A DNA stretch of 64,000 nt from assembly GCA_016184455.1 (NCBI GenBank), contig JACPCS010000106.1, positions 1 to 64,000 on the forward strand. The letters are read 5' to 3'. Below the pieces are notes generated by a model. That model ran no database searches. It saw nothing but the letters and a program-made list of their open reading frames with translations, and was not told the DNA's origin. Both the position numbers and the translations under genes were made by a program. The DNA is from Acidobacteriota bacterium. Its GTDB lineage: Bacteria; Acidobacteriota; Vicinamibacteria; Vicinamibacterales; UBA2999. Shown piece after piece: positions 24,980-28,507 of this stretch. Each line of letters begins with the position of its first letter. Positions within the stretch are counted from its first letter, which is position 1.

Positions 24980-25724
24980 CGCGCCGCAGGTCGACCAGCA
25001 TCCTCAACAGCGCGTCGATCTCGGCTTGACTTCGCAGTCTGTACCGCGCGGCTGACGTGCCCTGCGTGCCGACCTTGATCGAGAGGAGCTCCTCCGGCCC
25101 CCCCGATTGGAACGCGTCTTCGTCGGTCTCGTCGTCGCCGGCGTAGATCGCGGTGTCGCACGCGAAGACGCGCCGGGCGCGCTGCAGAGCGATCCCTTTG
25201 TTCGGGCCGCTGAAGTGGATGAGGTTGACCGCCTGTGCGCCGCCGATCACCCGCGCATCGTGGAGGTTCCTCACTGCGTCGGCAAGCGCCGCGAGCACCC
25301 GCTCCTTGTCGCGCACGCGTCGATAGTGGATCGTCACGGAGTGCCGCTTCTGCTCGATCATCAGTCCGGGCACCGGCGGCAGCTGCTGATTCAGGTGCGC
25401 CACCCATTCGCGCACATGCGGTGCCGTGTCGCTCAGGGCGCCGGGATACTCGGAACCGTGATCGCCGACGAGATGCCAGACCGGCACCCCCCGGAGACGC
25501 CGCGTCAGATCGTCCAGCGCGCGCCCGGAGAGGACGACGCAGGGGTACAGCCGTGCGACGGCCGCGAGGAGCCGCCGGGTCGATGGACGCATCCGGGCGG
25601 CGGGCGGCGTCGGTGCGATCGGCGCGAGCGTGCCGTCGTAGTCGAACGCCACGAGGACGTTCGATGCCGCAAACTGCGCGAGCGCGGCGGTGTGCCGGGA
25701 CGCGAGGATCAGTCGGCGGGGCAT
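24954..25724 (-). CDS. otsB: Trehalose-6-phosphate phosphatase OtsB
   Basis: The 256-residue HAD-family phosphatase has the nucleophile motif FDYDGTL (D28 and D30) and the metal-binding GDDETDEDAF near residue 210. It removes phosphate from trehalose 6-phosphate to give trehalose. Its ATG overlaps the stop of the upstream exchanger-OtsA fusion (TGATG), so it is the coupled last gene of the operon and completes the two-step trehalose pathway. Confidence 0.95.
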   Translation of the reverse strand: MPRRLILASRHTAALAQFAASNVLVAFDYDGTLAPIAPTPPAARMRPSTRRLLAAVARLYPCVVLSGRALDDLTRRLRGVPVWHLVGDHGSEYPGALSDTAPHVREWVAHLNQQLPPVPGLMIEQKRHSVTIHYRRVRDKERVLAALADAVRNLHDARVIGGAQAVNLIHFSGPNKGIALQRARRVFACDTAIYAGDDETDEDAFQSGGPEELLSIKVGTQGTSAARYRLRSQAEIDALLRMLVDLRRVSGRAAIR

Positions 25725-28507
25725 CAGACCGGTGCGTCCTCGGGGCCGCGCACCCCGCCCGCGCCGTCGCGCGCCGGGCCGCCGGCCAGATAGTGCAGCG
25801 GCTTCGACCAGAGGCTTTCCAGGCCCTCGAGAATATCGGAAGCCCAGCTGAAGACGTCGCGGCCGGCCACCACGCGCCGCATGGCGCGCATCCGCGCGCG
25901 CCGCTCTTCGCGCGGCATGTCGATGGCGCGCGCCAGCGCGTCGGCGAAGCCGTCGATGTCGTAGGGGTTGATGATCACCGCGTCGTGCAGCTCCTGTGCC
26001 GCGCCCGCCAGCGCGCTCAGCACCAGCACGCCGTCCTCGTCGTCGCGCGAGGCGACGAACTCCTTGGCGACGAGATTCATCCCGTCGTGCAGCGAGCTGA
26101 CGATGCAGAAATGCGCCGTGCGGTAGAGCGCAACGAGGCTCCTGATCCCGAGCGCGCTCGGATGGTAGACGATCGCCGCCGCGCCGCCCTCCGTCGTATG
26201 CCTCGAGTTCAGGTCAGCGATGGCCCGGGCGATTTCGGCCTCGATCGCGCCGTAGCTCGCCAGTTCCGATCGCGAGGGAACGCCGATCTGCACGAATGTC
26301 AGCTGCCCGCGGAGATGCGGCATGCGAGTGAGCACGGCATCGAGCGCCGCCAGCCGCTCCGGGATGCCTTTGGTGTAGTCGAGCCGGTCGACGCCGAGTC
26401 CGATGATCCCCCCGCGCAGCTGGAACATGTTCCGCAGGCGCTCCTGCTCGGCACGAAGCCCCGGATCGGTCGCAATGCGCTGAATCCGGTCGTAATCGAC
26501 GCCGATCGGGACCGCCACAACCGTGGGCCGCCGCCCGTCGAGCGTGACGCGCGACGCCTCGGCGTCGATCTCCGCGCCGAGCTCCTCTTCGGCGGCAAGC
26601 AGGAAGTTCCGCCGATCGCGTTCGAGCTGAAACGCGAGCAGGTCGTTGGCGAGCAGCCCGGCGACGAGCTCGCGCCGCCACGGGCAGATGCGCAGACGAT
26701 CGGGATACGGCCATGGAATGTGCCAGAACAGCGCCGTTCGCGCGTCGGGCCGGCGCACGCGCAGCGCGGGCGCCACGAGCGCCAGATGGTAGTCCTGGAT
26801 GAAGACCGGCGCGTTCGAGTCGTCGAGCTCCTCGTCGATCGCGGCGGCGAACCGTTCGTTCACGTCGCGGTACGCCGCCCAGTCTTCGCTCCGGAACTGC
26901 GGACGAACGTCCACCATATGGCAGAGCGGCCACAGCCCTTCGTTGGCAAACCCGCCGTAGTAGGCGGCGAACGTCGGTTCATCGATCCAGAGCCGGCGCA
27001 GCTCGTACGACGGATGGTCCGGCGGGACGCGCACCTTGTCGGACGGGTCGACGACCTCGCGATCGGCGGCGCCGGCGCCGTGCGCGATCCAGACGCCCCC
27101 GCGCTCCCGCATCAACGCATCGAGCGCCACCGCAACGCCTCCCGTCGCCGGCACGGCGGACACGCCGTCGGCCGTCCGGATGTGCAGATACGGCTCCCGG
27201 TTGGAGACGACCAGCAGCGGGCGGCGCGCGTGCGGCACGATCTCGCCCGCGCGCGCCAGGCCCTGCCGGAACACGATCGGCCCTACGAGCTCGTGGACGG
27301 CGATGAGGCCGACGAGCAGCATCTGCACGTTCGTGCCCCATCCTGGGAACTCGGCCGCGACAATCGACGCGAACCCCAGCGTGATGCCCGCCTGCGAGAT
27401 GAGTCCCGTCCACGCATACCCGCCGACGGGCCGCTCCAGGTGGGACACGGCGAGCCCCGCGGCGACGCCGGCGCGGATCATCGCAATGCGGCAGATCGAG
27501 ACGGCCAGTGCCACGGGTCCGCCGACGGCGAGCGCGTCGAGGCGGAGGGAGGTGCCGACGGCGACGAAGAAGATCAGCAGCACGGGAGGCGCGGCCCGCT
27601 GAACGGCCGCTCTCAGCGCGTCTCCCTGCGCCACGGCGAGGTTCTCGATCACGAGGCCGGCCGTCATCGCGGCGAGCAGCGGCTCGAACTCCTGCGTCGT
27701 GCCCACCTGGCTGAGCAAGGCGCACGCCACGATGAGCACGAGCGCGACGTCGCGGCCGATGTAGCGCACGTACAGGCCGAACACGGCGCCAACGAGTGCG
27801 CCGAACGCCACGGCGCCGCCGATCTCCCAGCCGAAGCGCGCCAGAAACGCCACGTCGTCTGGCCCCGTGCCGAAGACGAACCGGGCCAGCTGCAGCGCGA
27901 GCGAAAAGAGCACCACCAGTGCGAGGTCGGCCAGGATCACCATCGCGAGCACCAGTTCGCTCAATCGGCCGCGGGCGCCGGTCTCGACGGTGACCGCGGC
28001 GGTCATCGTCGGTGAGAAGCTGACGACAATCACGACGAGCAGCGCCACCATCGCGAGCCGTTCGATCCCGGCGGCCGAGGGCGCGACGGCCAGCCACGGC
28101 CATGCCAGCCAGGCGAACGCGAAGAGGCCCGTCAGCGCCACCGCCAGCGTCGCGCCGGTCATCTGCGCGATGGCAAGGCGGTGGCCGAGGCGCTCGACGT
28201 TCAGCGACAGGCCGGCGATGAACGCGATGAGCGTGGTGGCGACGCCCGTGATCGCCTGCAGCTGCGCGGCCATCGGCGCGCTGATCACGTTCCCGAGATA
28301 CGGCCCGACGAGGATGCCGAGAAGCAGGTACCCCGTCAGCCGGGGCACGTGGAGGCGGCGGATCACATCCCCCGCAATCCACGCGCCGAGGAGGGTGAAC
28401 CCAAGCGCGAGCGCGGTGCCGCCGGCGGCGATCCCTTCCACAGGTCCGAGGCGTCGCACCCACAGGACGGCCGCCACGGCGAGCAGAAGCGCCGCCAGTC
28501 GTCTCAT
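25724..28507 (-). CDS. Fusion of CPA2-type cation/proton exchanger and trehalose-6-phosphate synthase (OtsA)
   Basis: One uninterrupted frame of 927 residues starts at ATG 28507 (ATGA overlap with the upstream gene). Residues 1-427 form a polytopic monovalent cation:proton antiporter domain of the Na_H_Exchanger/CPA2 type: [62 protein letters not shown]. Residues 428-927 are a complete GT20 trehalose-6-phosphate synthase with the sugar-nucleotide arginine in [33 protein letters not shown] and [16 protein letters not shown]. All expected catalytic residues seem present. The join (residue about 427) is a short basic-to-hydrophobic linker with no frame break. Synthesis of trehalose 6-phosphate would thus occur at the inner membrane beside an ion exchanger. 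I know of no characterised protein of this layout. Confidence 0.9.

Follow-up and report, generated by a model that had tools for sequence, protein, structure and literature searches.

A trehalose-6-phosphate synthase (OtsA) of the GT20 family is fused in one open frame to an exchanger-type membrane domain in a genome of the Acidobacteriota (order Vicinamibacterales). The fusion gene lies in an operon together with genes for a second exchanger-like membrane protein (P2), an HtrA-like pseudoprotease with PDZ domains, and a trehalose-6-phosphate phosphatase (OtsB). The window, which is the whole stretch of 64,000 nucleotides analysed here, contains the operon. With a probability of about 45%, we consider that P2 and the exchanger domain form a heteromeric exchanger-fold module that controls the tethered synthase by regulating or localising it.

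The exchanger-OtsA fusion

The fusion gene (P0001; 25724–28507, minus strand) consists of 927 codons, with ATG first, TGA last and no internal stop. According to the Pfam search, PF00999 matches residues 41–407 with 58.6 bits (cut-off 26.2), and PF00982 matches residues 432–897 with 362 bits (cut-off 32.5) over positions 4–472 of its 473-position model. These results confirm the earlier note, in which a single 927-codon frame was read, with no strand given, as an exchanger-type domain joined to a complete GT20 OtsA; the OtsA motifs quoted there are present, and the domain search and taxonomic survey that it proposed found both domains in one frame and the same fusion in other genomes of the order.

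The exchanger domain (residues 1–419; 27251–28507, minus strand) is defined by PF00999 and the helices of the AlphaFold2 model, and the OtsA domain (residues 431–898; 25814–27217, minus strand) by PF00982. The join between them (residues 420–430; 27218–27250, minus strand) connects the end of the last transmembrane (TM) helix with the first strand of OtsA. The model of the whole fusion has a pLDDT of 82 and a pTM of 0.65. The last helix covers residues 390–419 and the first OtsA strand residues 431–435, with a pLDDT of 67 between them. In the putative topology, OtsA would be suspended from the cytoplasmic end of the exchanger's last helix through about 11 joining residues. The join length differs by one residue at most across the fusion genomes.

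Of the 162 genomes of the order that were searched, 28 carry the fusion with an open frame across the join; the window genome is one of them, and the overall identity is 48–79%. The main clade holds 23 of the fusions (families f1, f5, f6, f12 and f13), and a second clade holds five (family f10), one of which is cut by a contig end. In some fusion matches TGA or TAG is flagged, and these stops are located at or past the C-terminus, because the fusion ORFs span both domains. The window genome is a draft in 162 contigs, and apart from this nothing was found in support of an assembly artefact or a missed frameshift that merged two genes. Recurrence refutes this explanation, since 28 genomes from several families have this join in an open frame, and we leave it next to no probability. 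The carriers are mostly uncultured soil and groundwater bacteria, and the named copies (L032–L034) are from metagenome-assembled genomes of Acidobacteria.

In the OtsA half, 14 of 14 active-site positions are invariant in all 28 fusions. These positions, which serve NDP-glucose and glucose-6-phosphate (G6P), were named by motif in E. coli numbering, and the domain was also aligned to 5jij. Foldseek with the whole fusion gave OtsA structures alone among the top 50 matches listed, and the best fold match of the OtsA half is M. thermoresistibile OtsA with ADP and G6P (5jio; TM-score 0.88). Thus the half resembles the known OtsAs (E. coli 1gz5 and M. thermoresistibile 5jio) in its whole domain, fold, active-site positions and adjacent OtsB, whereas it differs from them in bearing an N-terminal exchanger and in scoring below the cut-off of the NCBIfam OtsA equivalog TIGR02400 (413 against 564.85). 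The tested relatives, both unfused OtsAs and OtsAs with two N-terminal TM helices, are likewise below this cut-off. Since fused, two-TM and unfused members all fall below it, the OtsA half belongs to a divergent OtsA subgroup and is best called OtsA-like. The conserved sites suggest that the fused enzyme is catalytically complete, with the formation of trehalose 6-phosphate (T6P) from UDP-glucose and G6P as its putative reaction, and the adjacent OtsB supports this indirectly. The fusion is the only GT20 gene found in the window genome. The genome also encodes TreY and TreS, so trehalose need not depend on the fused OtsA.

The exchanger half is modelled with 13–14 membrane helices, with breaks near residues 163–165 (FSP) and 370–374, as in the NhaA fold. 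The Pfam match and this helix pattern point to an NhaA-type fold. In exchangers of the CPA superfamily, the TM5 aspartate equivalent to Asp164 of EcNhaA is reported to be indispensable, and of the pair of acids this applies only to the second (PMC9408914). This residue is present in the window (D194; codon 27926–27928) and in all 22 main-clade fusions tabulated, and it is lost in four of the five second-clade fusions. The TM10 arginine R340 is kept in all tabulated rows. The domain had been labelled CPA2-type in the earlier note. This label is uncertain, as TIGR00932 (CPA2) gives 45 bits, below its cut-off of 238, and by sequence the closest exchanger of known structure is the CPA1 protein MjNhaP1 (E = 0.02). 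The window genome has four other PF00999 genes.

P2 and the other proteins of the operon

The fusion had been recognised in the earlier note, but P2, the HtrA-like PDZ protein and OtsB of the same operon had been overlooked. P2 (347 aa; 28504–29547, minus strand) overlaps the start of the fusion gene by 4 bp. No Pfam match was found for P2 or its family. In the profile comparison, P2 is matched to the exchanger domain with an E-value of 2.4e-8. The P2 model has a pLDDT of 89; its top PDB match is NapA (4bwz), and SLC9C1, NhaP and KefC are among the top matches. According to these comparisons, P2 represents a previously unrecognised family that is homologous to the exchanger domain and has a NapA-like predicted fold.

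The HtrA-like protein (29544–30776, minus strand; PDZ_2, 5.6e-18) begins at a conserved start, M57 of the longer ORF 29544–30944, and its gene overlaps that of P2 by 4 bp. It has a single TM segment at the N-terminus, two PDZ domains and a trypsin-like region that is degenerate. The catalytic serine of the GNSGG motif is absent, and phenylalanine or other residues stand at the position expected from the HtrA motifs. Trypsin_2 matches in the orthologues are sub-threshold only. As there is no catalytic serine, the protein is called only an HtrA-like pseudoprotease. OtsB (256 aa; 24954–25724, minus strand; PF02358, 1.6e-26; TIGR00685 above cut-off) is encoded downstream and overlaps the fusion stop by 1 bp. 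The ORF at 23618–24979 has an N-terminal PilX region as well as a stretch resembling bactofilin.

The fusion loci share the order PDZ protein, P2 and fusion, with adjacent and overlapping genes, as far as the contigs extend and the genes can be recognised; in G047 and G059, P2 is the only gene recognised upstream of the fusion. OtsB is often adjacent and is not recognised in every fusion locus. In the second clade, the HtrA-like protein encoded upstream is short and apparently devoid of PDZ domains (L130, 11239–12003; L131, 11054–11872). In G035, a bifunctional OtsA-OtsB ORF of 756 aa (L127, 797–3067) is the convergent neighbour of the exchanger-OtsA fusion. Just downstream of the G046 fusion, an ORF of 297 aa (L118, 6870–7763) is partially similar to the exchanger domain.

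In the profile alignment, the D-D pair of P2 falls on the A-D pair of the exchanger domain in TM5. The P2 site is D-A in the window (altered codon 29149–29151) and D-D in most relatives. In the unfused systems tabulated, both the D-D of P2 and the aspartate of the exchanger are kept (16 of 16 each). In the main fusion clade, where the exchanger keeps its aspartate in 22 of 22, the D-D of P2 is lost in 14 of 22; in G111, which is outside the motif table, P2 is without the segment holding TM4–TM5, yet it stays in the operon. In the second clade, P2 keeps D-D in four of four, and the exchanger aspartate is lost in three of the four tabulated fusions and also in G128, the P2 of which is not on the contig. 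No pair with both ion sites lost was found among the pairs examined. On the fusion tree, the losses require two changes in P2 and a single one in the exchanger. Because so few evolutionary events are needed, the reciprocal decay of the two partners is suggestive and not proof, and it may be chance within two lineages.

The paired proteins share with the CPA superfamily (NapA, NhaP, KefC) the PF00999 match of the exchanger domain, the broken TM4 and TM11 in the model, the TM5 aspartate, and a basic TM10 residue (arginine in the exchanger, lysine in P2). They differ from it in the A-D of the exchanger in place of N-D or D-D, in the pairing of two different subunits, and in the C-terminal glycosyltransferase. 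Cation/proton exchange is a putative activity of the pair. The reciprocal loss of acids and the presence of P2 suggest a heteromeric exchanger.

Cytoplasmic nucleotide-binding domains gate Kef-type exchangers, and CPA proteins such as KefC often carry C-terminal regulatory domains. Control could thus run in the reverse direction, with substrate or product binding to OtsA gating the exchanger in a Kef-like manner, so that cation export follows the sugar status. OtsA occupies the cytoplasmic C-terminus that is usual for CPA regulatory domains, the fold matches of P2 include KefC and SLC9C1, and at least one subunit keeps its ion-site acids in every pair examined. All catalytic positions of OtsA are kept, however, and OtsB is often adjacent, although a mere sensor would need neither; we regard reverse control as quite improbable.

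Relatives and origin of the fusion

No fusion was found outside the order among the best 80 loci of the contig scan or in an evenly drawn sample of 396 genomes from the phylum. In that sample, matches to the exchanger domain outside the order show at most 37% identity. Fusions are likely to be absent elsewhere in the phylum; some of the matches lie in long open frames of which the downstream sequence was unread. As the contig scan covers its best 80 loci, unrelated exchanger-OtsA fusions elsewhere could fall beyond it. An independent exchanger fusion in Alsobacter (L107) was considered and rejected, as the OtsA there bears a two-TM module.

In the best trees of both domains, the fusions form two clades, and they may thus have two separate origins. 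A single fusion clade is not rejected by the AU test (p = 0.33 and 0.42), and therefore one and two origins are both compatible with the trees. In G091 (family f15), the remains of a broken fusion resembling those of the main clade are found (L151, 5880–6895), and next to them part of OtsB in an overlapping ORF.

Unfused PDZ-P2-exchanger operons without OtsA are present in families f1, f3, f5, f6 and f15, and in family f2 the exchanger and a PDZ fragment only were seen, at contig ends. Among seven more distant exchanger homologues examined (five from elsewhere in the phylum and two from f10), six have an adjacent P2-like gene. The unfused operons of the order and these distant neighbours indicate that the P2-exchanger pair predates the fusion. 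In G100 (L179), an unfused otsBA of the same OtsA subfamily is divergent beside PDZ-P2-exchanger, which indicates that the partnership of OtsA and exchanger also exists without fusion. G043 seems to have a similar arrangement, split over contigs (L138 and L181). Both the fusion and a separate unfused PDZ-P2-exchanger operon are found in G047 (L128/L147) and in G059 (L129/L191).

Among the nearest OtsA loci outside the order and the close OtsA subfamily, 55 of 74 have an N-terminal extension of approximately 250–340 residues. Ten of the extensions were read closely, and each has two TM helices with about 140 residues between them as a predicted extracytoplasmic stretch. Two were scanned against Pfam, with no domain matched. 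These ten ORFs (L041, L048, L056, L062, L068, L073, L076, L089, L105 and L107) are about 735–833 aa long, and their hosts are Nitrospirota, Elusimicrobiota, Pseudomonadota, Myxococcota and others. Since 55 of the 74 outside loci are extended and the ten that were read are of the two-TM type, membrane tethering is common to this OtsA group. The two-TM layout is typical of sensors, and membrane signal modules look to be common on the group. The two-TM OtsAs (about 750 aa, in several phyla) are thus like the fusion in belonging to the same wider OtsA group and in carrying an N-terminal membrane module, whereas their module consists of two helices around an extracytoplasmic stretch and is not an exchanger. 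Tethering appears to be a habit of this OtsA group, and the exchanger a new kind of module.

This bears on another explanation, that the exchanger is a tether only, holding OtsA at the inner membrane in a fixed ratio with the exchanger and with no signal between the domains. The join is short and fairly variable: in the main clade its mean identity is 56%, compared with 74% for OtsA. In both clades, evolution is faster in the exchanger domain than in OtsA, and other families of the order encode members of the close OtsA subfamily without a fusion. These features would suit a plain tether. However, the length of the join is conserved to one residue in 28 genomes, the nearest OtsAs elsewhere have apparently sensory modules and not plain anchors, and a whole exchanger of 13–14 helices is a costly anchor. 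We consider a tether without signalling unlikely, though a serious candidate.

Possible role of the membrane module

In the reading that we prefer, control of the tethered synthase by the heteromeric module, the products of the operon would assemble into a membrane complex. As a homologous adjacent pair, P2 and the exchanger domain would make up a heteromeric module of the cation/proton-exchanger type (NhaA fold), with the periplasmic, membrane-anchored HtrA-like pseudoprotease with PDZ domains as its accessory. Ion or proton occupancy of the module, or movement through it, would alter the activity or the assembly of the tethered OtsA, and the co-produced OtsB would convert T6P to trehalose. 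The output of trehalose would then track the cation, pH or turgor state at the membrane. The module would act as a transceptor, in which transport can rest on either subunit.

In the earlier note, the fusion was proposed to place T6P synthesis at the inner membrane beside an ion path, so that ion flux or turgor could switch the synthesis directly. The location remains plausible, as the fusion is expected in the membrane next to an exchanger fold. In the second clade, on the other hand, the loss of the aspartate speaks against the fused domain itself as the ion binder, and a simple switch by ion flux through that domain is disfavoured there.

Two precedents make signalling plausible. Ks-Amt5 binds ammonium without translocating it and controls a fused kinase (PMC5764959), and the GT20 enzyme GgpS is directly activated by inorganic ions (PMC4390839). 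Ks-Amt5, an ammonium transporter joined to a histidine kinase, is like the fusion in that a transporter fold is fused to a cytoplasmic catalytic domain. It differs in its Amt fold, its kinase and its control of a phosphorelay, whereas the fusion carries a biosynthetic enzyme. A literature search that included membrane OtsA, heteromeric CPA proteins and Vicinamibacter, mostly outside subscription journals, found no account of the exchanger-OtsA layout, no experiment on any of its members, and no paper on a heteromeric exchanger of this arrangement.

A broader proposal, which is doubtful as a whole, is that a two-subunit NhaA-fold exchanger, with the ion site on either subunit, has turned into a transceptor switching a fused biosynthetic enzyme. 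Compatible-solute synthesis would then be gated by the membrane ion state without gene regulation, with possibly two separate origins of the fusion.

Under osmotic stress, bacteria often begin by taking up cations and produce compatible solutes later. To our knowledge, how the ion state reaches the compatible-solute enzyme is not settled in general. As the exchanger is physically joined to the T6P synthase here, a link between ions and enzyme becomes testable in one protein. In these bacteria, an ion-handling protein may control the production of a stress-protecting sugar.
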